Part shown: positions 7,171-38,040 of the stretch, in pieces | How positions within the stretch are numbered: the stretch's first letter is position 1 | How the letters are laid out: every line of letters begins with the position of its first letter | Origin: Aestuariivirga sp. | GTDB taxonomy: Bacteria > Pseudomonadota > Alphaproteobacteria > Rhizobiales > Aestuariivirgaceae | Assembly: GCF_020252395.1 (NCBI RefSeq) | Contig: NZ_JADCDB010000034.1 | Location: forward strand, 1-51,989 | Length of the DNA stretch: 51,989 nucleotides | Reading direction: 5' to 3' | Program-made: the position numbers and the translations under genes | The notes under the pieces: model-generated | The model's input: the letters and a program-made list of their open reading frames with translations, nothing else | What the model was told of the DNA's origin: nothing | Databases searched by the model: none

Positions 7171-7333
7171 GCGCATGGCCTTTTCGCAAAAGTGGGTTCC
7201 GCTTTCGCGGGTCATGCTCCGGTGTAACGGGACCTCAAGTGCATTTGCAATTGAGGGCGGAAAGTTGCGCCAGCTTATCAATCCAGAGCACCTTTCGCAT
7301 CGCAAGCGAGTCCACTTGCCCGAACGGTGCTCT
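7171..7333. repeat. rhizobial intergenic mosaic palindromes (copy 1)
   Basis: Two palindromic blocks lie between the LptF/G-like gene and the cupin gene. Block one (7171-7220) contains TTCGCAAAAG, GGTTCC and TCATGCT and is closely similar to 47060-47107. Block two (7285-7333) is bounded by the inverted repeat AGAGCACC/GGTGCTCT and contains a sequence sharing GTGGACTCGC with the repeat at 46996-47047. This resembles RIME-type mosaic repeats known from Rhizobiales. The cupin stop codon (7332-7334) is formed by its edge. Confidence 0.7.
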
Positions 7334-7694
7334 AAAGATTCCTTTCGAGCTCCCGGACGAAGACCACGAGAGTTGCGCCCGTCCCGGTCGTGGAGAAATG
7401 CTGCGTGCCGGTTTTCAGCAGCACGAAATCGCCGGCCCGATAGACATAGCCGTCATTGTCGGTCACCTCGCCCTCGATGACGAAGAACTGCTCATGGCAG
7501 GTGTGCTCATGCGGCTGGCTGGAGGAGCCGGGCGCCATGCGGTAAAGCGTGAAGCCCGCTCCCTCCGGGAAGGTGTCGTCGAACTGCACGAAGGACTGAC
7601 CGGGGATCGCGCGGCCATCGGCGTCGACATAGTTCCTGTAGGGCGCAGTCTTATAGTTAGCGACGATGCGCTCGGTGGCGGCGATCTTCTTCAT
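7332..7694 (-). CDS. small cupin-domain protein
   Basis: A 120-residue single-domain cupin. The metal-binding residues of motif 1 are visible as PHEHTCHEQF (H62, H64, E68) followed by G75, and motif 2 ends with H99 in TGTQHF. Small cupins of this form may be enzymes or ligand sensors, and the substrate cannot be told. ATG 7694 has GGGAG upstream. It lies 108 bases downstream of the APC permease on the same strand and could be cotranscribed with it, which links it loosely to methylated-amine use. Confidence 0.8.
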   Translation of the reverse strand: MKKIAATERIVANYKTAPYRNYVDADGRAIPGQSFVQFDDTFPEGAGFTLYRMAPGSSSQPHEHTCHEQFFVIEGEVTDNDGYVYRAGDFVLLKTGTQHFSTTGTGATLVVFVRELERNL

Positions 7695-7802
7695 GGTGGA
7701 GCGTCTCCCTGTTCAACGGAGTTTAAAACGAGAAAGCTCTTGCTGAAAGACGCATGCGGGGCCCCGCAGGACCCCGCACGGTCGGAGAGTCGAGACCGGA
7801 GT

Positions 7803-9530
7803 TCAGCCAGGCAGCACGAAGAACCAGTTGGCCCAAAGCGCAACGGCAGCTCCTGCCGCAAGCGTCAGATATGGCAACACGCCCGCCTTGCGTTCGCCAA
7901 GCCCACTGCCGACGATGCCGAGATCATCGAGCGCCTCCTTGGGGAACTTGCCACCATCCTGAACATAGTGCCGGAAGACGAAGACCGGGATGATCAGTGC
8001 GGCAAAGACAAGTCCTGCCCAGAGGGGGTTGGGTGCATCAGCCTTTGCGCCAACCAGCTGCCAGACCTTTGCGCCTGCTCCCAGCAGCATGATGTTTACA
8101 AAGGCCAGGATGGTATTCAGTCCGATCAGCCACGTTGGGGCCTTCCAAGGCCGTTCAACGTGCCCCGAATCAACCCGGTGAATCCAGCCGGAATTGAGAT
8201 TCAGGAAGTTAAAAATAATGTACCCCACGTTTGAGACCGCCAGGACGAAGAAGTATCCGCCCACATCCGAGGCGATTGCCAAGAGCAGGAGGTTGAAGCA
8301 GAGGTCCGTCCACATGGCGCCAGTGGGGGCGCCGTGGGCGTTCACACGGCCCAAGTACTTTGGCAGCCAACCGTCCTTTGAACCTTGGTAAAGGGTTCGC
8401 GAAGATCCGGCCATGGCCGTCATGATTGCCAGAAACAATGCCATGATCATCAGAATTACGAAGATTTGGGTGATCACTTTGCCACCGCCGACCATGTTTC
8501 CGAGAGCTTCGCCAACCCCGGAACCGTCGACGATCGGAGTTGCGAGCATCCCCTCGAGACCAAGCACCCCCTGGAACGTGAAGGGCACAAGGAAGAAGAA
8601 GAGGATGCAAAGCAGGCCGGAGAAGAATATTGCCTTGAATGCGTCTGTCGCTGGGTTCTTGAGCTCGCGCGTATAACAAACGGCTGTTTCGAAGCCGTAT
8701 GTGGACCACGCTGCAATGAATAGACCGGCGAAGAACAGGGTCCAGCCAGGATTGTTCCATGTACCGTCTGTTGTTACGTAGACGTTAGATGGGGGCACCA
8801 GCGGTGAGAAGTTCGCGAAATTGATCGATCCCTCAAGAATGGGAATAATGCCCACCAGTAGCAGGGGTACGAGTACGATGATGGCAAGCCATTTTTGAGC
8901 ATTCGCCGTCCCCAGTATACCACGATGCTGGATCGCAAAGATCGCTAGCATCAGAATGGCGCCTATCACAAACGTGGCATTGATGTTGAACGACGCCACC
9001 CCCGGAATGGAAAAGTTAAAGAGACTCCATGTGCGCACAGCGGGCGTGGCAGCCGCCGTAAGGGCAGCAATTGCGTCAGTGGCTAGTTTTCCGGCATGAG
9101 CGGGATCCGCCATCCATGCAATGACTTCCGGTGAAGTATCGGTGAATACAGGAACCGGGAACAACGAGTTCAACACGTAACTGGCGGCGATGGCGCAGCC
9201 CAGCGACAGCACCGGGCTCCAGGCGAACCAATTGCACCACACAGACAGGGGTGCGATGAACTTCGAATAGCGCAGCCAGGCCATTGCTCCGTACACGGAG
9301 GCGCCGCCCGACTTGTTGCCGAACATGCCGGCGATCTCGGCATAGGTGAAGGACTGCAGGAAGCCCATGATCATCGAGATGATCCACACCAGGAAGGCGA
9401 GCTTGCCGGTTACACCGGCGATGCCGCCGATGGAGAAAAGCACGAGAGGCGGCACGCCGGCCGCCACCCAGAAGGCGCCCTTCCAGTCGAGCGCCCGGAC
9501 GAGTTCGCCCGATTTTGATTGTTCCGACAT
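7803..9530 (-). CDS. APC-superfamily amino acid/amine permease
   Basis: A 575-residue inner-membrane protein with about 12-14 hydrophobic segments. The N-terminal block GVPPLVLFSIGGIAG and the later YAEIAGMFGNKSGGASVYGAM match the APC (amino acid-polyamine-organocation) family substrate-site helices. It is divergent from tdm with a 228-base shared control region, so a role in importing trimethylamine, TMAO or a related amine is a reasonable inference; no tmoXWV-type ABC importer is present. The middle of the gene (about 8.0-9.1 kb) is lower in GC than its ends, suggesting a mosaic origin. The ATG at 9530 is preceded by GGAGGATC. Confidence 0.85.
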   Translation of the reverse strand: MSEQSKSGELVRALDWKGAFWVAAGVPPLVLFSIGGIAGVTGKLAFLVWIISMIMGFLQSFTYAEIAGMFGNKSGGASVYGAMAWLRYSKFIAPLSVWCNWFAWSPVLSLGCAIAASYVLNSLFPVPVFTDTSPEVIAWMADPAHAGKLATDAIAALTAAATPAVRTWSLFNFSIPGVASFNINATFVIGAILMLAIFAIQHRGILGTANAQKWLAIIVLVPLLLVGIIPILEGSINFANFSPLVPPSNVYVTTDGTWNNPGWTLFFAGLFIAAWSTYGFETAVCYTRELKNPATDAFKAIFFSGLLCILFFFLVPFTFQGVLGLEGMLATPIVDGSGVGEALGNMVGGGKVITQIFVILMIMALFLAIMTAMAGSSRTLYQGSKDGWLPKYLGRVNAHGAPTGAMWTDLCFNLLLLAIASDVGGYFFVLAVSNVGYIIFNFLNLNSGWIHRVDSGHVERPWKAPTWLIGLNTILAFVNIMLLGAGAKVWQLVGAKADAPNPLWAGLVFAALIIPVFVFRHYVQDGGKFPKEALDDLGIVGSGLGERKAGVLPYLTLAAGAAVALWANWFFVLPG

Positions 9531-24845: not shown

Positions 24846-25766
24846 TCAACCGGGGGTGGCCAGAAGCGCCTCGACGGCGGCCCGGCGCGGCAGAGGTGCT
24901 ATGGCGCCATAGCCTTGGGTGGCAAGCCCGGCGGCGGCATTCGCGAAGCGTGCAGCGGCGGCAAGCGCCTCGCCGCGCGCCAGCTCCGCCAGTAGCGCGC
25001 CGGTGAAGGCATCCCCCGCACCCGTGGCATCGACGGCGGCAACCTTACAGGCAGGCAAGTGCTCCAGCCCGTCGCGCGTCGCCAGTGCCACGCCGTCCTT
25101 GCCCAGCGTGATGACCACCGACCCGGCCCCAAGCCCCAGGACACGGCGCCCGATCTCCGCCGGGTTGCGCAGGCCGAACAGCGCCTCGGCATCCTCCGCC
25201 GAGGTCTTGAGGATGTCGGCCCATGCAGCGGCAGCCTCGATCACGGGCCGGGCCTTCTCCGCCGCCCATAAGCGGGGGCGGAAATTGGTGTCGTAGGAGA
25301 CGCGCACGCCTGCCCGGCGGGCCATGGCGATGGCCGCGGCGACGGTTTCCGCCGCGCTGTCGCTAATCGCCTGGCTGATGCCGGAGGCATGGAGAAAGCG
25401 AGCCGAGGCGATGAGCGCGGGGTCGAGGTCCTCGGGCCGCATGCGGCTCGCTGCGGAGCCGGCGCGGCGGTAGGTGAAGACATGGCCCGTGGGCCCGTGG
25501 GTGACGAAATAGAGGCCGGTGGGGGCGCCCCTGTCCTGCACAACGGCGGACGTGTCTATCGCCTCGCGCTGCATCAGCACGCGCAGCTCATCGGCGAAGA
25601 TGTCGTCCCCCAATCGCGTCACATAGGCGGCCCTGCTGCCGAGTCTTGCGGCAGCCATGGCGACGTTGAGCGTGTCGCCGCCGAAGCCCGTCAGCCAGTT
25701 GCCGTCCGGCTGGCGGTTCAGTTCATAGAGCGGCTCGCCGATGGCGACGACGTCGATTGGGCTCAC
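24846..25766 (-). CDS. PfkB-family sugar kinase, KDG-kinase-like
   Basis: A 306-residue ribokinase-fold enzyme. The N-terminal [17 protein letters not shown] and the C-terminal [17 protein letters not shown] are the PfkB signatures, with the catalytic Asp in GAGD. The phrase DTNFRPRLW is typical of 2-keto-3-deoxygluconate kinases. The GTG start at 25766 overlaps the ABC ATPase stop by four bases, so the kinase is coupled to the sugar importer and probably acts on the imported sugar or its oxidised product. Confidence 0.88.
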
Positions 25767-26599
25767 GCCGCAGCAGCCGGGCTCTGCAGCGCGCCGGGGC
25801 CGGGAACGGCGCCGGGCGGGCACTTGCCGGCTATGATCATGCCCAGCACCTCGTCATGGTCGACGTCGGTGGTGCGCGCCGTGCCGACGACGCGGCCGTT
25901 CTTCATGACCGTCACGCGGTCGGCGAGGTCGAACACGTCATGAATGTCATGGCTGATGAGGAAGATGCCGATGCCCTCCGCTTTCAGCTGCTTGATGAGC
26001 TCGCCCACCTGGGCCGTCTCCTGCGGGCCCAACGCGGCCGTCGGCTCGTCCATGATCAGGATGCGGGCGTTGAAGTGGATGGCGCGGGCGATCGCGACCG
26101 ACTGGCGCTGGCCGCCGGAGAGCGCCTTCACCGGCTCCTTGAAGCGGCGGAAGTTGGGGTTGAGGCGCCCCATCACCTTGCGGCACTCGGCCTCCATGGC
26201 GACGTCGTCGAGGGTTCCCCATGAGGTGCGCAGCTCGCGGCCGAGATAGAGGTTTGCGGCGGCGTCGACATTATCGGCCAAGGCCAGCGTCTGATAGATC
26301 GTCTCGATGCCCAGCGCCTTGGCGTCACGCGGGTTGCTGATCTCCACTTTCTCGCCATTGATGAAGATGTCGCCATGGTCGCGCTTATAGGCGCCCGACA
26401 GAATCTTGATCAGCGTCGATTTGCCGGCGCCATTGTGACCGAGCAGGCCGACCACCTCGCCGGGATAGAGGTCGACCGAGGCATGGTCCACCGCCTTGAT
26501 GCCGCCGAAGGCAATGGAGATGTCCGTCATCGCGATCAACGGCGGCCCGGAGCGCAGAACCCCGGTGGGGTGCTTGTGGCCGTGATGGTGCGTTGTCAT
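25763..26599 (-). CDS. sugar ABC transporter ATPase, XylG/FrcA-like
   Basis: A 278-residue protein with a single ABC domain: Walker [10 protein letters not shown], signature LSGGQRQ, Walker B ILIMDEP and the switch His in LISHDIHD. Many sugar importers of this class have a fused double ATPase; this one has one domain, as in rhizobial FrcA-type systems. The N-terminus is His-rich (HHHGHKH). It is 13 bases downstream of the permease gene and coupled to the kinase. Confidence 0.92.
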
Positions 26600-26612: not shown

Positions 26613-27959
26613 TTATTTGACGCGGCGCTGATAGACTTGGTCGACGAAGACGGCGAAGACCAGCACGCAACCGACCACCATGTCCTTGGTGGCGGATTCG
26701 AAGTTGAGCAGCGTCATGCCCGATTGCAGCGACTGCATGACGAGGGCGCCGAGCATGGCGCCATAGATTGTGCCGAGGCCACCGGCCAACGAGGTGCCGC
26801 CGATCACCGCCGCGGCGATGACGTAAAGCTCGTCGAACTGGCCCAGCGCGTTGGTGGCCGAGTCGAGGCGGGCCGAGGAGATGGAGGCCGAGATCGCCGC
26901 CAGCATGCCCATGAGCGAGAACACCATGAGGGTGATCTTCTTGGTGTTGATTCCGGCGAGTTCGGCGGCTTCCGGATTGCCGCCGATGGCATAGATGTAG
27001 CGCCCGAAGCGGGTGCGGTTGGCCACGAAGGTCATGGCCACGCCGACGAACAGCGCGATCAGCACCGGGATCGAATAGCCGAAGGAGATGTTGAGGCCTT
27101 CGGGCGGGATGGTGGCGCCGGTCTGCTGCGCCCAGCGGTCCACCACACCCTTCGGCCAGTAATAGGCATTGAGCACCCAAGTGATGCCGATGACGGCGGC
27201 GCAGCCCGCGGCGGCGAGCAGCACCTCCGCCCAGACCGGCTTAAGCGTGAAGTTGAAGCGCTTCCTCTGCTGGCGGCCATTCCAGATCAGCGCCAGGATG
27301 GCGGCACAGATAAGAAGGCCCAGGATCCAGCTCGCCGTGGCGCCGATGGAGCCCGGCGTAATGCCGGAAATGCCCCCGCCGATGAGCTTGAAGTTCTTGT
27401 CCATGGGCGCCACCGTCTCGCCGCGGATGACGGACCAGGCTGCACCGCGCCACACGATGAGTCCGCCCAGCGTGACAATGAAGGAGGGAATGCCGAAGTA
27501 GGCGATGAGCGTTCCATGCAGCGCGCCAATCGCCGCACCGAGCGCCAGGCCAAGAATGAGCGTGATGATCCAGATGGCGGGGTGCCCAACGCCCAGCGCG
27601 GGGCCGAGCCAGTAGACCTGCATGGTGCCGATGCAGACGGCAGTGAAGCCGAGGACGGACCCGACCGAAAGGTCGATGTGGCGCATCACGATGATCAGCA
27701 CCATGCCCGTGGTCATCACCGCGATGGAAGAGGTCTGGACAAGCAGGATCCACAGGTTGCGGGGCGTGAGGAACGTGCCGCCAAGCAGCCCGTCACCGCC
27801 CCGGACGAAGGCGCTGGCGAGATCAAATCCGGCCCAGATCGCCAGCAGCGCGCCAAGCATGCCGAGCATGCGTGAGTCGATCTCAGTGGCGCGCAGGAAA
27901 CGCTTCAGCGTGCCTTCTTGTGCCATTCCCGGGTTCTGCGTGTTGTCGATCGCAGCCAT
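26613..27959 (-). CDS. xylH: sugar ABC transporter permease, XylH-like
   Basis: A 448-residue inner-membrane permease with about ten to twelve hydrophobic segments. The [13 protein letters not shown] and GGxxVWRG segments and the EAAELAGIN coupling loop are hallmarks of the RbsC/XylH family. It is longer than RbsC, as XylH is. It is the second gene of the operon after the binding protein, 128 bases upstream of it in gene order. Confidence 0.92.
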
Positions 27960-28087: not shown

Positions 28088-29143
28088 TTACTTGCACGCG
28101 TCGACCGTGCCAGCGGCCACGCCGGCGCAGACTTCTTCCTTGGTCACCCAGCCGCCATCGATGACGTCGTTCAGGTTGGCCTTGGTGATCGGGTTCGGAG
28201 CGATCAGAACGGCGTTCACTTCAACGCCCTTGGCGCCGGAGTTGAACTTGCCCACACCCGGAATATCGGAGTTGGCCTTGCCGTCGGCGATCATGTTGGC
28301 GAATTCAGCGGCGGCCTTGCCGAGCACGCGCGAGTCTTTCCAGACCGACACGAGCTGCGTGCCGAGCGCCACGCGGTTAAGGGCGGCCTTGTCGCCATCC
28401 TGGCCGGTCACCGGCACCGTGCCGGCGAGGCCCTGTGCCTCGAGAGCGGCAACGACGCCGCCGGCCATGCCGTCGTTCTCGGAGATCACCGCGTCCACCT
28501 TATTGTTCACCGAGGTCAGGCACTGTTCCATATTCTTCTGGGCGGCATCCGGCTTCCAGCCGTCGGTGAAGGTTTCACAGACGTTCTTGATCTTGCCGGC
28601 GTCGATGTTGGGCTTCAGCACTTCCATGATGCCTTGGAACAGGAAGGTGGCGTTCGGATCGCCCTTGTCGCCCTTGATGAAGGCGAAGTTGCCATCCTGG
28701 CGGCCCTTCTCGAGCATGGTCGAGGCCATCAGACGGCCGACGCCCACATTGTCGAAGGTGACGTAGAGCGCATCCGGATGCTCGACGAGCACGTCATAGG
28801 AAATCATCTTCACACCGGCGTCAGCCGCAGCCTGGAAGGCCGGCAGGATTGCGTCCGAGTCGAAGGCGACGACGAGAATGACGTTGCAGCCCTGGGTGAT
28901 CAGGCCCTCGATGTCGGCCTGCTGCTTGGCGGCGGAGCCCTGGGCGTCAGCCGAGAAATACTTGTTGCCGGCTGCCTCGACCACGGCCTTGATCGCCGCT
29001 TCATCGGTCTTCCAGCGCTCTTCCTGAAAGGTCTTCCAGGAGACGCAGATGTTCTTACCGGCCGCCATGGCCGGCGAGGTGGCGAGGCTGGCCGCGGCGA
29101 GCGCAACGGCTCCGGCCGCCAGTGTCAGGATCTTGCGATACAT
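28088..29143 (-). CDS. xylF: D-xylose-type periplasmic binding protein
   Basis: A 351-residue exported sugar-binding protein with a signal peptide of about 27 residues ending AMA. The mature part aligns with XylF: ERWKTDEAAI, the ISYDVL and YVTFDNVGVG strands, NKVDAVISENDGMAGG and VTGQDGD. ATG 29143 has GGAGGAGGAC upstream. The first gene of a four-gene importer/kinase operon, divergent from a ROK regulator. Xylose is the best guess for the substrate, though related pentoses cannot be excluded. Confidence 0.92.
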   Translation of the reverse strand: MYRKILTLAAGAVALAAASLATSPAMAAGKNICVSWKTFQEERWKTDEAAIKAVVEAAGNKYFSADAQGSAAKQQADIEGLITQGCNVILVVAFDSDAILPAFQAAADAGVKMISYDVLVEHPDALYVTFDNVGVGRLMASTMLEKGRQDGNFAFIKGDKGDPNATFLFQGIMEVLKPNIDAGKIKNVCETFTDGWKPDAAQKNMEQCLTSVNNKVDAVISENDGMAGGVVAALEAQGLAGTVPVTGQDGDKAALNRVALGTQLVSVWKDSRVLGKAAAEFANMIADGKANSDIPGVGKFNSGAKGVEVNAVLIAPNPITKANLNDVIDGGWVTKEEVCAGVAAGTVDACK

Positions 29144-29363
29144 TTGTTGGGTCCTCCTCCAAGCCGCTACGGCCCCCGTGAGACGCCTCCCTGAAGCAGC
29201 TTGTCGCCACCGCACGGGGTTCCTGGGCCATGGACGGTCTGTTGTTTTATTTCGGCGTCCAAAAAAATGTTGCGACAATCCGTCATCGGAGTCAACATGC
29301 AAAACAAGCAAAACAAAATAGTGCAGCGCAACAACAATGCTGCACGAGCGAAATGGGAGAGGC
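29144..29363. promoter_or_regulatory. divergent control region between xylF and ROK gene
   Basis: The 220-base region is AT-richer than its surroundings near 29240-29350. It has an imperfect inverted repeat TTTTATTT-N8-AAAAAAAT (29245-29268) and repeated CAAAACAAG/CAAAACAAA units near 29298-29315. ROK repressors of xylose and related genes bind AT-rich inverted repeats, so this is the likely operator site for both directions; this is inferred from position. Confidence 0.4.
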
Positions 29364-30623
29364 ATGCGGGAGAAGGCCGACAGCGATCTCGTGCGCCGGC
29401 AGAACCGCCTCCTGCTGATGGAGGCGCTGCGCCAGCACGGCGCCATGGCGCGGGTCGAGATGGGGCGGCACACAGGGCTGTCGCCCGCCTCGATCACCAC
29501 CATCTCCTCGCAGCTCATCGCCGACGGCATCCTCGAAGAGGCGCACGCCGCGCATGCCGCCGCCGAAGGCCCGCAGCGGCGCGGCCGGCCGGTGACGCGG
29601 ATCGATTTCAACCCGAGATCCGCGAATGTGGTGGCCGTGAAGGTATCGATCGACGGCATCGAGCTGGCGCTTGCCGACGGACGGGGCGCGATACTGGCGC
29701 GGCGCACCGCGCGCACAGCCACCTATGACGCCGGCCCGCTGGCCTTCGGCAAGCTGGTGGCGGACGAGATCACCACGCTCCTCGCCGGGGCGCGGGTGCC
29801 CAAGCGGCGCGTCGCCCGCGCCGGCATCGCGGTGCAGGGGGTGGCCGACTCGCAGGCGGGCACCGTGGTCTGGAGCCCGGCCTTCCGCGAGCGGAACATT
29901 TCCGTGGCCGCCACCATCGAGGGCCAGCTCGGCATTCCCTGCCGCGTGGCGAATGACGCCAACATGATCGCTGAGGGGCTGATCGGCAGCGACCGCCAGC
30001 GCTACGGCGGCACGGCGGCGGTGGTGTTCATGGGTTATGGCGTGGGCATGGGTCTCATCATCAATGGGCAGGTCTATCACGGACCCACCGGGGCCGCCGC
30101 CGAGTTCGGGCACATGAACCACCTGCCTGACGGACCCCTGTGCCGCTGCGGGCGGCGCGGCTGTGTGGAGGCCTATGTGGCGGATTACAGCCTGCTGCGC
30201 TGGGCCTCGGGCCATGCAGTGACGCAACCCCCTTCCTCCAACGCCATCCCGCAACAGGACATGCTGGCACTGGAAGCCGCAGCCCATCGCGGCGATCCAG
30301 CCGCCGTTGCAGCCTACGCCAAGGCGGGCGAAGCGCTGGGCTTTGGGCTTGCCCGCCTCATCGCAATCCTCACACCATCGCGCATCGTGCTGGCAGGGCC
30401 GGGCACGCGGGCCATGCCGCTGATCCGCCCGCATCTTGAGCGGGCGCTGGAACAGGGTGTGGTCGACGAGCTGCGCCGCACCGTCGAGATCGAGGTGGTG
30501 CCGATCGGCACCGACATGATCGTCAAGGGCACCATCGACCGCGCGCTGCGCCACGTCGACCGCGAAATCTTTGCCCATGGCCCGCTGACGAAGCGCGGCC
30601 GCGAACTGGAGACCGTCGCATGA
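29364..30623 (+). CDS. ROK-family transcriptional regulator
   Basis: A 419-residue protein with an N-terminal winged helix-turn-helix (residues about 10-70, LLLMEALRQHGAMARVEMGRHTGLSPASITTISSQL in pieces) and a ROK sugar-kinase-like domain with the zinc motif GPLCRCGRRGCVEAY. It probably represses the divergent xylFHG operon and responds to a sugar. ATG 29364 was chosen because GGGAGAGG precedes it; an ATG nine codons upstream has none. Its stop overlaps the next start by four bases, so it is coupled to the haloperoxidase-like gene. Confidence 0.88.
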   Translation: MREKADSDLVRRQNRLLLMEALRQHGAMARVEMGRHTGLSPASITTISSQLIADGILEEAHAAHAAAEGPQRRGRPVTRIDFNPRSANVVAVKVSIDGIELALADGRGAILARRTARTATYDAGPLAFGKLVADEITTLLAGARVPKRRVARAGIAVQGVADSQAGTVVWSPAFRERNISVAATIEGQLGIPCRVANDANMIAEGLIGSDRQRYGGTAAVVFMGYGVGMGLIINGQVYHGPTGAAAEFGHMNHLPDGPLCRCGRRGCVEAYVADYSLLRWASGHAVTQPPSSNAIPQQDMLALEAAAHRGDPAAVAAYAKAGEALGFGLARLIAILTPSRIVLAGPGTRAMPLIRPHLERALEQGVVDELRRTVEIEVVPIGTDMIVKGTIDRALRHVDREIFAHGPLTKRGRELETVA

Positions 30624-31942
30624 GCATCACCCGCCGCCGTGCCTTGCAACTGGGCGGCGCTGCCGCAGTCCTGGCGTTCACCGGCGGCATCGCGCGCGCC
30701 GGGGACAATGGTGGCGAGATCCTGCGCCAGTGGTACAAGGTGGTGCTGATGCTGGTGCGCCACACCGCCACCTACTCGCCGCCCGTGGCAAGCCGCGCCT
30801 TCGCCTATCTGGGCGTTGCGGCCTATCAGGCTGTGGCTTCAGGCTCGACCTCGCTGGTGTCGCTCGCAGGCCAGCTCAATGGCTTGAAGGCCCTGCCGCC
30901 GCGCGACCCCTCGAAGCGCTATAGCGACGCGGTGATCGCCCATTGCGTGATGGCCTCGGCGGTCAAGACCTTCTTCGGCAACACCGGCCCCACCGGCCAG
31001 CGCGTGATGGCGGCGGCCGAGAAGAAGCTGAAGGGCGATGCGCTGCAGGGCCTGCCTGACGGCGTAATCGCGGCGAGCCTTGCCTATGGCGAGACGCTGC
31101 AGGCGGCGATCATCGGCTGGTCGCAGGATGATGGCGGCGCCGTCATCGAGAACATGGGCTTTCCCATGGACTATCCCGTGTCGAAGGAGCCGGGGCACTG
31201 GGCGCCGACCAGCCCCATCCGCATGCAGCAGTTCCCGCTTCTGCCGAAGTGGGGCCAGAACCGAACATTCGCCATGCCATCGGGCGCAAGCTGCGGCCTG
31301 CCACCGCCGCCGCTCTACAGCGAAGACCCGAATTCCGATTTCGTGAAGCAGGCGAAGGAGGTCTATGACGTCACCACGCATCTGACGCCGGAGCAGATCG
31401 CCATCGCGCGCTTCTGGTCGGATGACCCGATGTTGTCCTTCACGCCGCCCGGCCACTGGATCGCCATCGCGCATGACTTGCTGGAGCAGGAAAATGCCGG
31501 GCTCGACAAGTCAGCCGAGGTGATGATGCGGCTGGGCGTGGCCATGGCGGATGGCTTCATCGGCTGCTGGAACGCCAAGTTCCGGTATGACTATGTGCGG
31601 CCCGTCACCGTCATCAAGAAACTGATCGACGCGAAATGGGAGCCGCTGCTCATCACCCCGCCCTTCCCCGAATATCCGAGCGGGCATTCGACGGGCTCAG
31701 GGGCCGCCGCCGCGGTGCTGACCGCGATCTATGGCGAGAACTTCGCCTTCACCGACCGCAGCCATGCGCGCGACGGGCTGGGCGAGCGCAAGTTCCCGAG
31801 CTTTGCCGCCGCGGCCGAGGAGGCCGGCATCTCGCGTATGTATGGCGGCATCCATTTCCGCCCCGCCATCGAACAGGGTCTCGTCCAGGGCCGTTGCATC
31901 GCGCAGTTCGCCATCGGGCTCCGCACGCGGAGCTCGACGTGA
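30620..31942 (+). CDS. vanadium-dependent haloperoxidase / PAP2-family enzyme, exported
   Basis: A 440-residue protein with a twin-arginine signal (TRRRALQ, cleavage about residue 27). All residues of the vanadate/phosphate site are present: K320-x6-R327-P, PSG-H356 (S354, G355) and R406-x5-H412, the last being the vanadate-linking His in haloperoxidases. Whether it binds vanadate and halogenates, or is an acid phosphatase, cannot be told from these motifs. It overlaps the ROK gene upstream and the FG-GAP gene downstream by four bases each. Confidence 0.85.
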   Translation: MSITRRRALQLGGAAAVLAFTGGIARAGDNGGEILRQWYKVVLMLVRHTATYSPPVASRAFAYLGVAAYQAVASGSTSLVSLAGQLNGLKALPPRDPSKRYSDAVIAHCVMASAVKTFFGNTGPTGQRVMAAAEKKLKGDALQGLPDGVIAASLAYGETLQAAIIGWSQDDGGAVIENMGFPMDYPVSKEPGHWAPTSPIRMQQFPLLPKWGQNRTFAMPSGASCGLPPPPLYSEDPNSDFVKQAKEVYDVTTHLTPEQIAIARFWSDDPMLSFTPPGHWIAIAHDLLEQENAGLDKSAEVMMRLGVAMADGFIGCWNAKFRYDYVRPVTVIKKLIDAKWEPLLITPPFPEYPSGHSTGSGAAAAVLTAIYGENFAFTDRSHARDGLGERKFPSFAAAAEEAGISRMYGGIHFRPAIEQGLVQGRCIAQFAIGLRTRSST

Positions 31943-33543
31943 GGACTTTCGCCATCGCATCCGCAACGCTTCTGATCTCGGCGCGCGCGGCGCTTGCCGG
32001 CGGCGGGCCGGTGGTCCCCTCCTTCGTGGAGGAAACGAAAACATCGGGCATCGCGAGCGTCTACAGCGGCGAATGGCAATACATGGTGGGTGGCGGCGCT
32101 GCCGCCTTCGACTGCAATGACGACGGCTTCGAGGACGTGCTGATCGCCGGGGGCGGGAAGCCTGCCACCTTCTACTTGAACAAGAGCACGCATGGCGGCG
32201 CCCTGAAATTCGAGAAGCACACGAGCGGCCTCGAATTCGACGCGATGACGGGCGCCTATCCGCTCGACGCCGACGGCGACGGCATCATGGATGTCGTGGC
32301 GCTGCGGGTGGGCGAGAACATGCTGATGAAGGGCAAGGGCAACTGCCAGTTCGCCCGCGCCAACGAGGACTGGGGCTTCGCGGGCGGCGACGGCTGGTCG
32401 ACGGCTTACGCCGCAACGTGGGAAAATGGAAATGACTGGCCCACGATCGCCATCGGCAACTACATCGACCGCACCGAGGAGCTGGAACCCTGGGGCTCCT
32501 GCACGCCCAATGTGCTGCAGCGACCCAGGGACGGAGGCAAGGGCTTCGCGCCGCCTCTTGAGCTGAAGCCCAGCTACTGCCCGCTCTCCATGCTGTTCAC
32601 CGACTGGAACAATTCCGGCACGCCCGACCTGCGCATGGCCAATGACCGCGAATATTACGAGGGCGGGCAAGAGCAGATGTGGCAGGTGCGGCCGGGCCAG
32701 CCGCCGAAGCTCTACCGGAAGGAAGATGGCTGGGCCTACCTGCGCATCTGGGGCATGGGGCTGGCGGGCTATGACCTCGATGGCGACGGTTTCCAGGAAT
32801 ATGCCATCACCTCGATGGCCGACAACAAGCTGCAGACGCTGAAGGAGCCGCCCAAGGATGGTTCTGCACCCAAGCCCACCTACAAGGACGTGGCTTGGCC
32901 CAGGGGTGTCACCGCGCACCGGCCCTTCATGGGCACCGACCTCAAGCCCTCGACCGCCTGGCACATCGACTTCCAGGACGTGAACAATGATGGGCTCGCC
33001 GATCTCTTCATCGCCAAGGGCAATGTCTCCGAGATGCCGGACTTCGCGATGAAGGACCCCAACAACCTGCTCGTCCAGGGCAAGGATGGCAAGTTCATCG
33101 AGATGGCCGATAAGGCGGGAGTCGCCTCGACCGAGACCTCGCGCGGCGCCGCCCTCGCCGACTTCAACCTCGATGGCCTCGTCGACCTCCTCGTCGTCAA
33201 CCGCAATGCGCCCACGCAGGTCTGGCGCAATGTGACGCCTGCTGCTGGCAACTGGATCGAGGTGAAGCTGCGGCAACCGGGCGGCAACGTCAACGCCATC
33301 GGCGCCATGGTTGAGGTGAAAACGCCGACGGGCCGCCAGACGCGCGAGGTCGTGTCGGGCGGGGGCCACGTCTCCGGCCAGTCCGGCTGGGTGCATTTCG
33401 GCATCGGCGATGCGAAGCAGGCCGAAGTTCGGGTGCGCTGGCCGGGCGAAGACTGGGGCAAACCCATGACGCTGGGGGCCAATCGCTTCGCGGTTCTGGA
33501 CAAGACGAAGGCTGAGGCTGAAGCGTGGACGCCCAACCCTTAA
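31939..33543 (+). CDS. secreted FG-GAP repeat protein with ASPIC/UnbV domain (CRTAC-like)
   Basis: A 534-residue exported protein with a signal peptide of about 20 residues (ending ALA). At least four calcium-binding-like FG-GAP/VCBS loops are seen: DADGDGIMD, DLDGDGFQE, DVNNDGLAD and DFNLDGLVD, consistent with a beta-propeller. The C-terminus is an ASPIC/UnbV domain (NWIEVKLRQ.., GGGHVSGQS..VHFGIG). The start GTG 31939 overlaps the haloperoxidase stop (GTGA) and has GGAGC upstream. It likely forms a periplasmic partner or binds the same ligand as the enzyme before it. Confidence 0.85.
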   Translation: MRTFAIASATLLISARAALAGGGPVVPSFVEETKTSGIASVYSGEWQYMVGGGAAAFDCNDDGFEDVLIAGGGKPATFYLNKSTHGGALKFEKHTSGLEFDAMTGAYPLDADGDGIMDVVALRVGENMLMKGKGNCQFARANEDWGFAGGDGWSTAYAATWENGNDWPTIAIGNYIDRTEELEPWGSCTPNVLQRPRDGGKGFAPPLELKPSYCPLSMLFTDWNNSGTPDLRMANDREYYEGGQEQMWQVRPGQPPKLYRKEDGWAYLRIWGMGLAGYDLDGDGFQEYAITSMADNKLQTLKEPPKDGSAPKPTYKDVAWPRGVTAHRPFMGTDLKPSTAWHIDFQDVNNDGLADLFIAKGNVSEMPDFAMKDPNNLLVQGKDGKFIEMADKAGVASTETSRGAALADFNLDGLVDLLVVNRNAPTQVWRNVTPAAGNWIEVKLRQPGGNVNAIGAMVEVKTPTGRQTREVVSGGGHVSGQSGWVHFGIGDAKQAEVRVRWPGEDWGKPMTLGANRFAVLDKTKAEAEAWTPNP

Positions 33544-33546
33544 TGC

Positions 33547-33632
33547 CGTCACCCCAGCGCAAGCTGGGGCCCAGCTTCGGGCAGAAGACACGCGGACAGA
33601 AAGCTGGGTCCCGGCTTTCGCCGGAATGACGG
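33547..33632. repeat. REP-like palindromic repeat pair
   Basis: Two hairpins flank each other after the FG-GAP gene: CCCCAGC-gcaa-GCTGGGG (33552-33569) and CCGGC-tttc-GCCGG (33611-33624). The outer sequence CGTCA..and GGAATGACGG with GGGACCCAGC in reverse form is the common REP-type repeat of many alphaproteobacteria. It may also stop transcription after the operon. Confidence 0.65.
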
Positions 33633-33708
33633 TTCAGTGAGTTTGCACCATCCTGATTTTCTTTTCCCCTCCGCCACCTTATGACGGTAGCAAGACGGAG
33701 ACGGACCC

Positions 33709-34902
33709 ATGCCCCTGACACTCACCCGCCGCGGTTTCGCGAGCCTCGTTGCGCTGACGCCCTTTCTTTCGACTGCGCATGCCGAGGAGAGCTGGGCCGG
33801 CATCGAGAAACAGGCGAAGGGCCAGACCGTCTATTTCAACGCCTGGGCCGGGTCGCCGCAGGTCAACGACTATATCGCCTGGGCGGCGGGAGAGCTGAAC
33901 GCGCGCCATGGCATCACGCTCGAACATGTGAAGCTCACCGACACGGCGGAGGCGGTGCGCCGGGTGCGTGACGAGGTGAAGGCGGGCAAGGACGGCAGCG
34001 CCGGCCTCATCTGGATCAATGGCCAGAACTTCCACGTGATGAAGGAGGAGCAGCTGCTCTTCGGCCCCTTCGCCTGGGACCTGCCGAACTTCGCGCTGGT
34101 CGACACCGATGGCAAGCCGACGACGCTTGTCGATTTCGCCGAGGGCACCGAGGGGCTCGAATCGCCCTGGGGCATGGCGCAGCTCACCTTCTTCGCGGAT
34201 GGCGCGAAGCTCCCGGCGCCGCCGATGTCGATGATGGAGCTGCTCGACCTGGCGCGCGACGAGCCGGGCCGCATCGCCTATCCGGCCCCGCCCGATTTCC
34301 ACGGCGCCACCTTCGTCAAGCAGGCGCTGGCCGAAACCATCGCCGACCGCGCACTGCTGCCGCTCGCCATCGACAAGGACGATTTCAGGGAGGCCACGCA
34401 GCCGCTGTTCGCATTCCTCGACCAGCTGCACCCCTATCTGTGGCGAGAGGGCAAGCAGTTCCCGCTGACCCAGGCGCAAGTGACGCAGATGCTGTCTGAC
34501 GGCGAGCTGTTGATGGGCCTCACCTTCAATCCCAACGAGGCGGCGAACCTGGTCTCCTCCGGCACGCTGCCTGCCACCACCATCGCCTGGCAGAACCGCG
34601 GCGGCACAATCGGCAACACGCATTTCGTGGCCATCCCCGTTAATGCGAAAGCGAAGGCAGCAGCGCAGGTGGTGGCGAATTTCCTGCTCTCGCCGGAAGC
34701 CCAGGCGCGCAAGGCCGATCTCAAGGTCTGGGGCGATCCCACGGTGCTCGACATGGACAGGCTGACGCCCGGCCAGCGCGCATTGTTCACGGGCGGTGAC
34801 GCGCCCGGCGCGGTGAAGGACCCGGCCCGCACCATCCCGGAGCCGCATGGCAGCTGGGTGCCGCTGATCGAGGCCGCATGGCTCGAACGCTACGGCGCAT
34901 GA
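33709..34902 (+). CDS. ynjB: ABC transporter substrate-binding protein, YnjB family
   Basis: A 397-residue exported binding protein with a signal peptide containing an RR motif (LTRRGFASLV; cleavage after THAEE about residue 25). The mature start GQTVYFNAWAGS and the WINGQNFHVMKEE segment match the YnjB family, related to thiamine and putrescine binding proteins. The substrate is not known. ATG 33709 lies after AGACGGAGACGG. Its TGA overlaps the permease start (ATGA). It heads the four-gene ynjBCD-ynjF operon. Confidence 0.88.
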   Translation: MPLTLTRRGFASLVALTPFLSTAHAEESWAGIEKQAKGQTVYFNAWAGSPQVNDYIAWAAGELNARHGITLEHVKLTDTAEAVRRVRDEVKAGKDGSAGLIWINGQNFHVMKEEQLLFGPFAWDLPNFALVDTDGKPTTLVDFAEGTEGLESPWGMAQLTFFADGAKLPAPPMSMMELLDLARDEPGRIAYPAPPDFHGATFVKQALAETIADRALLPLAIDKDDFREATQPLFAFLDQLHPYLWREGKQFPLTQAQVTQMLSDGELLMGLTFNPNEAANLVSSGTLPATTIAWQNRGGTIGNTHFVAIPVNAKAKAAAQVVANFLLSPEAQARKADLKVWGDPTVLDMDRLTPGQRALFTGGDAPGAVKDPARTIPEPHGSWVPLIEAAWLERYGA

Positions 34903-36497
34903 ACAGGCTGGGTGCAGCACCGCTGCTGCTGCTCTGGGCGCTGCCGCTGCTCGCGCCACTCGCCATGCTGCTGCCCGCGGCGCTCGATGGCGAAGCATGG
35001 CGCATGGCGCTGGCGCACCCGCAGCTGTGGCCGGCGCTGGCCCTGTCGCTCGGCGCCGGAGCCGTCTCGACACTCGGTGCGCTGGCCCTCACGCTCACGC
35101 TGCTCGCCGGGCTCTACCGCAGCCGCGTTTGGGACAGCCTGCAGGCGCTCGCGGCTTCAGGCCTCGCCATCCCGCATCTGGCCTTCGCCATCGGCTTCGG
35201 CTTCCTCGTCATGCCATCCGGGCTGTTGGCGCGGCTCTTCATTGGAGGCGAAGCGCCGCCGCAATGGGTGAGCGTGCAGGACCCATGGGGGCTGACGCTG
35301 AGCCTGGCACTGGCGCTGAAAGAGCTTCCCTTCCTGCTCACCGCGGGGCTCGCACTCCTGTCGCGCGGCGACGCGGCGCTGCAACTGCGTCAGGCCTGCC
35401 GCGCGGCGGCAAGCCTCGGCCATGCGCCGGGCTCCGCCTTCCTGCGCGTGGTGCTGCCGCCGCTGCTGAAGGACCTTTGCTGGCCATTGATCATCGTCTT
35501 CGTCTATGGCGCCACAGTGGTCGACATGGCGCTGGTGCTGGGCCCGACGCAGCCGCCGGCACTGGCCGTGGTGATCTGGCATGCGCTCAATGACGTCGAT
35601 CCCGCCATGAATGGCATGGGACTCGCCATGGTGCTGCTGCTGACCGCCGCGCTGGCGCTGGTGCTGGGTGTTGTGGCCCTGTTGCTGCGGCGAGCTCGTG
35701 ACCCGCTGCACCGGCGGCTCGCTGCAGGCCCGTCACCGCTCAGCGCACCACGCGGCCTCGCGGTGCTGCTCGGCGCAGCGGCGCTGCTCATCCTCCTCCT
35801 CGCAATGGCGGTGCTGGTGATCCTCTCCTTCGCACCGCGCTGGCCCTACCCCGCGCTGCTGCCGCCCGTGGCGGATGGCGCAGCCTGGATGAAGATGACG
35901 GCAGCGCCATTGTGGGTGAGCCTGACGCTGTCGCTCACCGCCGCCGCGACAGCCGTCGCACTGGCGGTGCTGTGGTTCGAGACGCAGGCGCCCGCGCGCG
36001 ATAGCTGGGTGAACGGCCTTGCCCTTCTCGCCCTCGCGCTGCCGCAACTCGCCAGTGCGGGCGGGCAATACAAGCTGTTCTTGCCGCTGGGCCTCACCGG
36101 CACCGTGTTCGGACTGTTCCTGGCGCACCTGACACCGGTGGCCGCCTACGTGCTGATCGTGCTCGCCGGGCCTTACCGCGCCTTTGACGGGCGCTATGTG
36201 GCGGCGGCCCGCGCCCTCTCGGTGTCCCGCATCCGCGCCCTGCTGACGGTGAAGCTGCCGCTGCTGAAGGCGCCGCTGCTCACCGCCGCCGCCATCGGCT
36301 TCGCCGTGTCGATCGCGCAATATGTGCCGGCGCAACTGATCGCCGCGGGACGCTTCAGCACGCTGCCGATGGAGGCGGTGACGCTCGCTGCTGGCGGCAA
36401 CCGCGCCCTCACCGCCGCCTTCGCGCTGGCGCTGGCCACACCACCGCTCCTCGCCTTCCTCGCCGCCGCGATGCTGGGGAGGCCCAGGTGGCGCTGA
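34899..36497 (+). CDS. ynjC: ABC transporter permease, YnjC family (fused double permease)
   Basis: A 532-residue inner-membrane protein with two permease modules in tandem, about six hydrophobic segments each, as in ThiP-type and FbpB-type permeases. Each half carries the coupling-helix region (RQACRAAASLG near residue 170 and AARALSVSRIRAL near residue 440). It is coupled at both ends: four-base overlap with ynjB and ten-base overlap with ynjD. Strong Ala/Leu richness is typical of a high-GC membrane gene. Confidence 0.9.
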   Translation: MNRLGAAPLLLLWALPLLAPLAMLLPAALDGEAWRMALAHPQLWPALALSLGAGAVSTLGALALTLTLLAGLYRSRVWDSLQALAASGLAIPHLAFAIGFGFLVMPSGLLARLFIGGEAPPQWVSVQDPWGLTLSLALALKELPFLLTAGLALLSRGDAALQLRQACRAAASLGHAPGSAFLRVVLPPLLKDLCWPLIIVFVYGATVVDMALVLGPTQPPALAVVIWHALNDVDPAMNGMGLAMVLLLTAALALVLGVVALLLRRARDPLHRRLAAGPSPLSAPRGLAVLLGAAALLILLLAMAVLVILSFAPRWPYPALLPPVADGAAWMKMTAAPLWVSLTLSLTAAATAVALAVLWFETQAPARDSWVNGLALLALALPQLASAGGQYKLFLPLGLTGTVFGLFLAHLTPVAAYVLIVLAGPYRAFDGRYVAAARALSVSRIRALLTVKLPLLKAPLLTAAAIGFAVSIAQYVPAQLIAAGRFSTLPMEAVTLAAGGNRALTAAFALALATPPLLAFLAAAMLGRPRWR

Positions 36498-37132
36498 AGC
36501 TCGAGCACGTCTCGATCCGCCTCAATGACCGGACATTGATCCAGCCCCTGTCGCTCAGCGTGGAGACCGGCGAAACGGTGGCGCTGATGGGCGCCAGCGG
36601 CTCCGGTAAGTCGACGCTGCTGTCCTTCATCGCAGGCGGCCTCGAGCCGCCCTTCACCGCCACGGGCAAGGTGAGCCTCGACGGCGTGCAGCTCGACAGT
36701 CTGCCACCAGAGGCGCGACACATCGGCCGGCTGTTCCAGGACGATCTGCTCTTCCCGCACCTCACCGTGGGCGAAAACCTGCTCTTCGGCATGCCGCGCG
36801 GGCCCCGGCCTGCGCGGCTGGCGAGAGTCGACGCCGCCCTGGCGGAGGCGGAGCTGCCGGGCTTCGGCGAAAGGCCGCCGCACACGCTCTCCGGCGGCCA
36901 GCGCGCCCGCGTGGCGCTGATGCGCGCACTGGTGGCGGAGCCCCGCGCCATGCTGCTGGATGAGCCCTTCAACAAGCTCGACGCCCCCTTGCGCCAGGCG
37001 ATGCGCAGCTTCGTGTTCGAGCACATCGCGGCCCGCGGCATCCCCTGCCTTATGGTGACGCATGATGAAGCCGACGTACCGCCCGGCGGCCGCGTGCTGC
37101 GGCTGAAGGACGGCGAGGTGACCCATGCTTGA
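36488..37132 (+). CDS. ynjD: ABC transporter ATPase, YnjD family
   Basis: A 214-residue ATPase with Walker A GASGSGKST, signature LSGGQRA, Walker B AMLLDEP and the switch His in MVTHDEAD. GTG 36488 has GGGGAGG upstream and overlaps the permease. It lacks the extra C-terminal domain found in larger importer ATPases, as is usual for YnjD. It ends eight bases inside the next gene. Confidence 0.92.
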   Translation: MALKLEHVSIRLNDRTLIQPLSLSVETGETVALMGASGSGKSTLLSFIAGGLEPPFTATGKVSLDGVQLDSLPPEARHIGRLFQDDLLFPHLTVGENLLFGMPRGPRPARLARVDAALAEAELPGFGERPPHTLSGGQRARVALMRALVAEPRAMLLDEPFNKLDAPLRQAMRSFVFEHIAARGIPCLMVTHDEADVPPGGRVLRLKDGEVTHA

Positions 37133-37730
37133 CCGGCTGGCGCTGAACCTCGTGAAGCCCGCGGTGGACGCGGCCGCCCGGCATCTGGCGGCGCGCGGCA
37201 TCACAGCGGACCAGGTGACGCTGGCGGGCTTCGGCTTTGGCATGCTGGCCGCCGTGCTGGTCGCCTCCGGCCACAGCCTCCTCGCCATCCTGCCGCTGGT
37301 CGCCAACCGGGCGCTGGATGGCATCGACGGCGCGCTGGCCAGGCTTTCCACCTCCTCCGAGCGCGGCGCCTTCCTCGACATCTCGCTCGATTTCGTGTTC
37401 TACGCCGCCATTCCGCTGGCCTTCGGCATCGCCGCGCCGAGCGAAAACGCGCTCGCCGCCGCGGTGCTGCTCGCCGCCTTTGTGGTAACGGGGACGAGCT
37501 TCCTCGCCTTCGCCGTGCTGGCGGAGAAGCGCGGGCTGAAGAGCACAGATTATCCGTCCAAGGCCTTCTACTATCTGGGCGGCCTGACCGAGGGCACGGA
37601 GACGATTGCCTGCTTCCTTGCCATGTGCCTGTGGCCGCAACACTTCGCTGCGCTGGCATATTTCTATGCATTCCTCTGTGCGCTGACGGCCGCGACGCGG
37701 CTGCAAGCGGGCTGGAAGGCCTTCGGCTGA
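37125..37730 (+). CDS. ynjF: CDP-alcohol phosphatidyltransferase-family protein, YnjF-like
   Basis: A 201-residue integral membrane enzyme with about five or six transmembrane segments. The catalytic CDP-OH-P motif is present: D-x2-D-G-x2-A-R then G-x3-D-x3-D (RALDGIDGALAR..GAFLDISLD). Such enzymes move a phosphoalcohol from CDP to an alcohol, for example in phospholipid head-group synthesis. It overlaps ynjD by eight bases, so its acceptor alcohol could be what the transporter brings in. The exact reaction is unknown. Confidence 0.88.
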   Translation: MLDRLALNLVKPAVDAAARHLAARGITADQVTLAGFGFGMLAAVLVASGHSLLAILPLVANRALDGIDGALARLSTSSERGAFLDISLDFVFYAAIPLAFGIAAPSENALAAAVLLAAFVVTGTSFLAFAVLAEKRGLKSTDYPSKAFYYLGGLTEGTETIACFLAMCLWPQHFAALAYFYAFLCALTAATRLQAGWKAFG

Positions 37731-37790: not shown

Positions 37791-38040
37791 GCGCTCGCCC
37801 AAAGTCGCACGTGCCCCAAGGATTTCCCCAAAGCAACGACGGTGCGGGCTTTTTGGTCTCTGCCGGCTCCTCCAAAGGCCGGGGTTACTGAGAGGCACCA
37901 CTATCCTTGCCCCATGTGCGATTGGGAGCTTCCCGATCAAGCCAAGGCGAACGTCAGTCTGAGCAGAGCGTTTCCGCGTCTCCACAGCGTGGCACGACCG
38001 TCATCATTCTGGCGCAGGCAACGCTTACCCTTGATTCCGG
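37791..38040 (+). ncRNA. speF-type cis-regulatory leader RNA
   Basis: The 250-base leader of the ornithine decarboxylase gene is strongly structured. Outer helix 37806-37813 (CGCACGTG) pairs with 37913-37920 (CATGTGCG, one G-U); inner helix 37817-37823 (CAAGGAT) pairs with 37903-37909 (ATCCTTG); a small hairpin lies at 37863-37882; and a stem-loop ATTGGGA-GCT-TCCCGAT (37921-37937) abuts the outer helix. Position and shape fit the speF motif known upstream of alphaproteobacterial ornithine decarboxylase genes. The identity to that motif is from memory; a covariance search would settle it. The 3' limit is approximate. Confidence 0.7.

Follow-up and report, generated by a model that had tools for sequence, protein, structure and literature searches.

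Closest described systems

Described systems close to the locus presented here include the xylose clusters that combine a ROK-type XylR regulator with XylFHG, XylA and XylB. Another point of comparison is given by the MauG/methylamine dehydrogenase and MbnH/MbnP systems, in which a di-haem peroxidase-like enzyme has a dedicated protein partner. Hydrazine-synthase-like clusters of Planctomycetota and Desulfobacterota carry, according to excerpts of their description, a CRTAC1/FG-GAP gene beside genes for a propeller and a CCP/MauG-like di-haem subunit, with ABC substrate-binding genes downstream, and the gamma-type part of the hydrazine-synthase-like genes resembles CCP/MauG (PMC12758564). Those clusters differ from ours in phyla and enzyme set, and the same excerpts name no xylose genes (PMC12758564).

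Here we analyzed a window (the whole stretch of 51,989 nucleotides of Aestuariivirga sp. DNA) in which genes for a vanadium-haloperoxidase-type enzyme (VHPO) and a CRTAC1-like propeller (FG-GAP) lie next to a ROK regulator and a xylose-type importer. Regulator, importer and operator layout are the same as in the ROK-type XylR clusters; the differences are that xylA and xylB, which adjoin in many relatives, are off the contig stretch of the window, and that an extra, predicted exported peroxidase-propeller pair is present. The MauG and MbnH systems are alike in having an enzyme and a dedicated partner, whereas the enzyme here can also be of the vanadate type. No description of the VHPO/propeller/ROK-xyl combination was found in the titles and abstract beginnings of the papers listed by full-text searches of the open PubMed Central library.

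Organization of the locus

The ROK, VHPO and FG-GAP genes form a unit divergent from xylF-H-G (Table 1). As the original prediction had it, these three genes overlap by four bases at each border: ATGA at 30620-30623 contains the ROK stop and the VHPO start, and GTGA at 31939-31942 the VHPO stop and the GTG start of FG-GAP; an alternative ROK start is possible at 29337. The overlap recurs in relatives, at 19/23 ROK-VHPO and 46/94 VHPO-FG-GAP borders scored, at 37/38 DHOR-FG-GAP, 11/26 ROK-DHOR and 5/8 ROK-FG-GAP borders (DHOR being a di-haem family treated below), and at 5/9 borders with the reversed order FG-GAP-VHPO; these counts leave out the window and include a few genomes twice.

Table 1. 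Features of the locus, with window coordinates and the evidence for each assignment.
Feature	Position	Strand	Evidence
PfkB-type sugar kinase, end of importer unit	24846..25823	-	KDG-kinase and related models, below cut-off
xylG-type ATPase, 278 aa, one nucleotide-binding domain	25763..26599	-	first half of 500-residue sugar ATPase models
xylH-type permease	26613..27959	-	GguB and other sugar-permease models, below cut-offs
xylF-type sugar-binding protein	28088..29143	-	TIGR02634 xylF, 330.1 bits, cut-off 389.55
Predicted 22-bp ROK operator (imperfect palindrome TTTATTTCGGCGTCCAAAAAAA) separating xylF from the divergent ROK gene	29246..29267	.	single match in the genome; same position in relatives
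ROK-family (NagC/Mlc/XylR-type) repressor	29364..30623	+	PF00480, 142 bits
VHPO, vanadium-haloperoxidase-type enzyme, Tat-type leader	30620..31942	+	PF01569; phmmer to 4cit; active-site residues invariant
CRTAC1-like FG-GAP propeller, C-terminal ASPIC/UnbV domain, predicted exported	31939..33543	+	FG-GAP_3 and UnbV_ASPIC (Pfam)

Some features of the surroundings may be recorded separately. The xylG-type ATPase has a single nucleotide-binding domain, the models it matches having about 500 residues. Downstream of FG-GAP, the stretch 33544-33650 before the next transporter gene looks repeat-like by eye (CGTCACCCCAGCG ... CGGAATGACG); no inverted pair was reported there by the repeat finder. An ABC transporter set follows at 33709-37730, which we take to be YnjBCD-like (its substrate-binding gene is above the PRK11622 cut-off), and this interval also includes a small gene resembling, by eye, CDP-alcohol-phosphatidyltransferases; both occupy the same position in many loci of the family. 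An Rfam ar45 sRNA and a speF leader were located at 37797-38010, directly 5' of a decarboxylase-like gene (of the ornithine decarboxylase type by eye).

The enzyme and its propeller partner

The nearest solved relative of the VHPO is PDB 4cit, a "vanadium-dependent haloperoxidase" (phmmer E 7.9e-79, residues 51-433), presumably the Zobellia enzyme. Three weaker solved matches have E values of 2.1e-5 to 2.4e-4, and all four solved relatives found are named vanadium haloperoxidase or NapH protein; we take NapH to be a VHPO. The vanadate-site residues predicted earlier (K320, R327, S354-G355-H356, R406 and H412, in the numbering of that prediction) are indeed each unchanged in 124 of the 125 relatives aligned, the remaining row being a gap and some genomes standing twice in the alignment. 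The predicted Tat signal could likewise be read by eye as a twin-arginine leader (MSITRRRALQLGG...ARA), a feature which is not universal, since 63 of those 125 rows have an RR in the 60 residues that precede the core. Both the site residues (K, R, SGH, R, H) and the relatedness to solved members place the protein, as judged from its sequence, among the probable vanadium-dependent haloperoxidases; it is like the Zobellia-type enzyme over residues 51-433 and in the active site, and differs from it by standing in a sugar-importer cluster and by its coupling to a CRTAC1-like protein.

The Pfam label of the VHPO is nevertheless PAP2 (PF01569), the vanadate/phosphate active-site motif is common to VHPO and PAP2 phosphatases, and this motif alone cannot separate the two. 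A phosphatase in this position could free sugar from a phosphoester for the importer, which we regard as very unlikely, in view of the names of the four solved relatives and of the di-haem proteins, non-phosphatases, that hold the same slot in relatives.

The partner had been described as an exported beta-propeller with an ASPIC/UnbV domain, a view supported by both Pfam matches and by a Sec-type leader read by eye at about 31939-31998. Aestuariivirga litoralis has counterparts of both proteins, with 85% (VHPO) and 86% (propeller) identity. FG-GAP repeats, ASPIC/UnbV domain and CRTAC1 fold together assign it to the CRTAC1 family, and its middle part is conserved (NDR-Y, E245, GMG, SMxD, STxWH and KGN). 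Compared with cartilage acidic protein 1 (CRTAC1, PDB 9etn), the propeller is bacterial and predicted to be exported, and the portions examined of its sequence alignments with CRTAC1 and two large FG-GAP proteins do not extend over the conserved middle part. Kinship with aldos-2-ulose dehydratase was also considered and found no support in the sequence.

Regulator and operator

The NagC and Mlc models align to the ROK protein from residues 6 and 10, with scores below their equivalog cut-offs, thus the N-terminal HTH region is covered. With up to 3 mismatches allowed, TTTATTTCGGCGTCCAAAAAAA matches nowhere else in the 3.49-Mb genome, with zero control matches, and the position of the operator is the same in relatives. 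With a weight matrix derived from ten sites of the family, the top-scoring 22-mer anywhere in the locus was found 5' of xylF in 38 of 48 non-VHPO order-level loci with xylF; two of the remaining loci rank second or third and eight score 8 or less. A strict palindrome scan 5' of the pair missed even known sites, which the weight matrix recovered. As in XylR-type systems, a ROK gene stands beside an importer with a conserved palindromic operator, and ROK appears to act as local regulator in a cluster with a xylose-type importer; a sugar-type ROK as first gene, which had been called unexpected, is therefore what such a cluster would be expected to have. We infer that ROK binds the predicted operator and, from the xylA and xylB genes in clusters of relatives, that xylose would be the inducer.

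In the window genome xylA is on contig C1 and xylB, over cut-off, on C1 and C30. The operator was not found near any of them, therefore ROK here seems to serve the importer and the enzyme pair only. At pairs unlinked to xyl genes the weight matrix gave a mixed picture, most showing no strong site: L047 has a score of 25.3 at 180 nt before the aligned VHPO start, L055, L067 and L100 have scores of 14-15 upstream of VHPO, and in L054, L044 and the Rhizobium loci no operator above the limit was found upstream of VHPO.

Linkage to xylose genes

The binding protein of the importer is named xylF-type only, because its score is under the XylF equivalog cut-off used to recognize the D-xylose importer XylFHG (Table 1). 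The xylA and xylB genes of a D-xylose utilisation operon, absent from the window's cluster, are in the cluster in many relatives. Within the family, VHPO was found in 37 of 69 genomes, and FG-GAP is no more than 500 nt away from it in 35 of 37 loci (36 genomes); at the two exceptions, L048 and L067, the contig ends at VHPO. The stretch that carries VHPO also carries xylF, H or G in 27 of the 37 loci; the 10 without any xyl gene include several on short contigs. By genome, 35 of the 69 have VHPO and xylF, 2 VHPO alone (G027 and G029, which are 89% and 79% complete), 1 xylF alone (G006) and 31 neither; in genus g9, both are carried by G054, G056 and G057 and neither by G053 and G055. Three gene orders were observed: xylGHF divergent from ROK-VHPO-FG-GAP, ROK divergent from xylF-H-G-VHPO-FG-GAP, and xylGHF divergent from VHPO-FG-GAP.

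A wider survey took the best 80 of 584 relatives; it shares genomes with our other surveys (L112 and L032, for example), and the counts are not additive. At 60 of these 80 loci FG-GAP shares the strand of VHPO and is at most 500 nt away; they comprise all 60 from alpha- and betaproteobacterial records and, by the 500-nt test, none of the 20 others. The expectation that enzyme and FG-GAP protein would be found together elsewhere is thus borne out in the two proteobacterial classes. One of the others, L144, whose record carries the label Deinococcales, combines ROK, xylFHG and VHPO and lacks FG-GAP. Taking the alpha/beta loci plus L144, again among the best 80 of 584, xyl genes are present at 30 of 61 (xylF in 28; two short contigs have xylA, with or without xylB, and no xylF), and xylA and/or xylB at 14, one representative of each being above the NCBIfam cut-offs. 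At the remaining 31 of the 61, Rhizobium included, no xyl gene was found within about 10 kb or to the contig end; short contigs are frequent among such pairs. Since about half of the alpha/beta VHPO-propeller pairs in this survey are without a nearby xyl gene, the link is common and not universal. The proposed tie of the secreted pair to sugar sensing and to a divergent xylose importer is upheld in so far as the linkage to xylFHG recurs, and the same is true of the ROK gene, which accompanies xylFHG at many loci and not always.

Where xylA and xylB are included, the arrangements are again diverse. In the Rhodobacterales (L131, for example) ROK is divergent from xylF-H-G-xylB-xylA-VHPO-FG-GAP; Comamonadaceae L165 has xylA-xylB-ROK-xylGHF divergent from FG-GAP-VHPO, and Comamonadaceae L172 has FG-GAP-VHPO-xylFHG-ROK-xylB-xylA. 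The many pairs without a xyl gene on their stretch could suggest a neighbourhood without function, the pair merely hitch-hiking beside the importer; several gene orders over two proteobacterial classes, the co-occurrence of the genes, and the presence of another kind of enzyme-propeller pair in the same coupled place (see below) make this reading highly improbable. The full clusters of Rhodobacterales and Comamonadaceae, which include xylA and xylB, would also suit an extracellular oxidation of lignocellulose or halide, with hypohalous acid from VHPO, aromatics attacked by di-haem enzymes and xylan opened for uptake. The nearest solved relative is a vanadium haloperoxidase, and titles in reference lists call the Zobellia enzyme an iodoperoxidase. 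Di-haem CCP/MauG enzymes, in contrast, are usually periplasmic, and to our knowledge they are not known as secreted lignin oxidases, so that we hold the lignocellulose or halide reading to be quite unlikely.

Outside these classes, the 19 more distant loci of the wider survey (best 80 of 584; one a Thiotrichaceae record) include 5 Bacteroidota with a larger FG-GAP gene at most 1 kb upstream of VHPO; no FG-GAP gene was found within 1 kb in the other 14. The ASPIC domain was confirmed in the large FG-GAP genes of L190 and L185, and in Bacteroidota L190, L185, L184 and L189 two or three such genes stand in a row directly before VHPO. A plasmid survey gave 90 records, all under 60% identity, and among four of them examined FG-GAP genes were beside VHPO only in Gemmatirosa (Gemmatimonadota), whose VHPO and large FG-GAP/ASPIC genes overlap by ATGA. 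A VHPO-FG-GAP fusion in this locus (L108), suggested by a stop-to-stop ORF, was rejected, VHPO being in another frame. The VHPOs of L109-L111 have no propeller partner, and neither an FG-GAP nor a xylF match was found at the low-similarity VHPO-like loci L103-L107.

In four Tabrizicola/Rhodobacter loci (at about 8.4-9.9 kb in L142, L152, L153 and L154) a FAD-dependent DAO-type oxidoreductase gene, its domains checked for L154, is directly upstream of VHPO, and no xyl genes were seen; this oxidoreductase is a possible source of H2O2.

Exchange of the enzyme beside the propeller

Searching with the FG-GAP protein, the propeller was found in 76 of 397 order-level genomes. The gene beside it encodes VHPO in 19, DHOR in 39 and a CCP/MauG enzyme in 8, and 10 have none of these within 1 kb; one DHOR and one CCP were identified through Pfam as representatives, and the others by BLAST to the representative. 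All 57 propeller genomes without VHPO were examined: xylF is on the stretch in 48, with xylA or xylB too in 22 of the 48, and 34 of the 39 DHOR cases have xylF. Two CxxCH motifs are present in 38 of 38 DHORs scored, and the 8 CCP_MauG di-haem peroxidase genes, within 1 kb of the propeller, are usually convergent with it. A phylum search with the propeller was positive in 20 of 398 genomes. The 14 belonging to family f60 have CCP (9), DHOR (1), VHPO (1) or none within reach (3), with ROK directly 5' of FG-GAP in 12; with flanks of 1.5 kb, the f60 loci do not reach far enough to reveal xyl genes. That a propeller lacking both VHPO and DHOR has no enzyme beside it was rejected for 17 loci (8 order, 9 f60), where CCP_MauG is its neighbour. 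In L295 an open frame of 202 aa that has two CxxCH motifs (7270-7875 in the orientation analysed) was noticed about 1.6 kb before the propeller, which otherwise has none of the three peroxidases nearby. MauG/MbnH-type pairing, a di-haem enzyme beside its partner, is thus seen in relatives with DHOR or CCP_MauG and not in the window, because there the enzyme is of the vanadate type.

Unlinked pairs included, xylF is present in 53 of 54 propeller-positive genomes against a base rate of 80 in 259, a comparison which assumes that the 259 genomes are among the 397 searched and that G118 is present; at the threshold used, 27 of the 80 xylF genomes have no propeller. Fisher p-values computed in the course of these analyses take no account of common descent. 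The constant part is the propeller and not the vanadium enzyme, and its partner enzyme can come from one of three peroxidase families, of which the two di-haem kinds (DHOR and CCP/MauG) may be kin of each other.

G006 has, in the place of VHPO between ROK and FG-GAP, a protein with two CxxCH motifs. The C-terminus of this protein matches Pfam DHOR (31.9 bits against a cut-off of 22), described as "di-haem oxidoreductase, putative peroxidase"; its gene overlaps each neighbour by four bases, and ROK and the operator are kept. The operator of G006 is identical to that of the window and its xylF falls among those of family genomes that have VHPO (support 93), while its FG-GAP is inside the DHOR clade; G006 shows one swap of the enzyme-propeller pair at a kept importer and operator.

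Phylogenetic trees were used to compare the genes over more loci. In a tree of 147 FG-GAP proteins, in which CCP rows are labelled "none" and VHPO rows come mostly from VHPO searches, a single branch (SH-aLRT 96) separates the 89 VHPO-linked rows from all others, and the enzyme label changes four times in total against a shuffled mean of 52. For 89 loci with both genes, the split of VHPO versus the rest requires a single change in the propeller phylogeny and four in that of xylF, the four being forced by well-supported branches (a quick method without bootstrap, some long branches flagged). Enzyme and propeller therefore move as a unit, and the propeller stays with its type of enzyme as the pair passes from one importer to another.

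The VHPO, DHOR and CCP/MauG families have H2O2 in common as oxidant, and the pair could accordingly be a peroxide defence cued by plant sugar: xylose would signal plant or algal tissue, the exported peroxidase would remove H2O2 from outside and the propeller would be a scaffold. In an excerpt in keeping with this, a vanadium iodoperoxidase of Zobellia is up on fresh brown alga, and the same passage stresses reactive-oxygen defence (PMC9296495). This defence reading leaves unexplained that the propeller tracks the enzyme type and that it persists without a nearby peroxidase of the three kinds, and we consider it possible yet rather unlikely.

Discussion

Our results support a conserved, gene-coupled and presumably exported pair, having an operator in common with a xylose-type importer, in which different peroxidase-type enzymes stand beside the same kind of partner. 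Whether enzyme and propeller form an exported peroxidase module of two proteins within a xylose-type regulon, the reading we prefer to those discussed above, appears to us about evenly balanced. Support comes from the several gene orders, the single operator, the co-occurrence, the G006 swap, the trees and the gene overlaps. Counted against it are the pairs without xyl genes, the 10 of 76 propellers with none of the three enzymes within 1 kb, the xylF genomes without propeller (27/80), the distant VHPOs without partner, L144, the xylA and xylB of the window genome on another contig without operator, and the unlinked pairs, mostly without a strong operator.

According to this regulon reading, ROK would repress through one operator, itself supported by conservation, between xylF and its own gene, and a sugar would relieve repression, so that importer, ROK, enzyme and propeller would be made together. 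The enzyme and the CRTAC1-like propeller, encoded by overlapping genes, would be exported and, as comparative genomics suggests, may act as one unit, probably in contact. Since a vanadate-type and two di-haem peroxidase-like kinds of enzyme occur beside the propeller, the role of the enzyme would be a peroxide-driven oxidation. The propeller, as the constant member, could carry the actual function in the xylose context, with the peroxidase as an oxidising enzyme dedicated to it that would either mature the propeller or serve its reaction.

A different peroxidase at the same spot in related bacteria points to an undescribed oxidative step linked to plant-sugar use. An exported peroxidase-type enzyme would thereby be tied to pentose uptake across a wide set of alpha- and betaproteobacteria, giving a hint on the role of two poorly understood groups, the bacterial CRTAC1-like proteins and the Zobellia-type vanadium haloperoxidases. 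Different peroxidases beside the same kind of partner amount to a natural experiment, and the role of bacterial CRTAC1 proteins may become approachable through growth on xylose.
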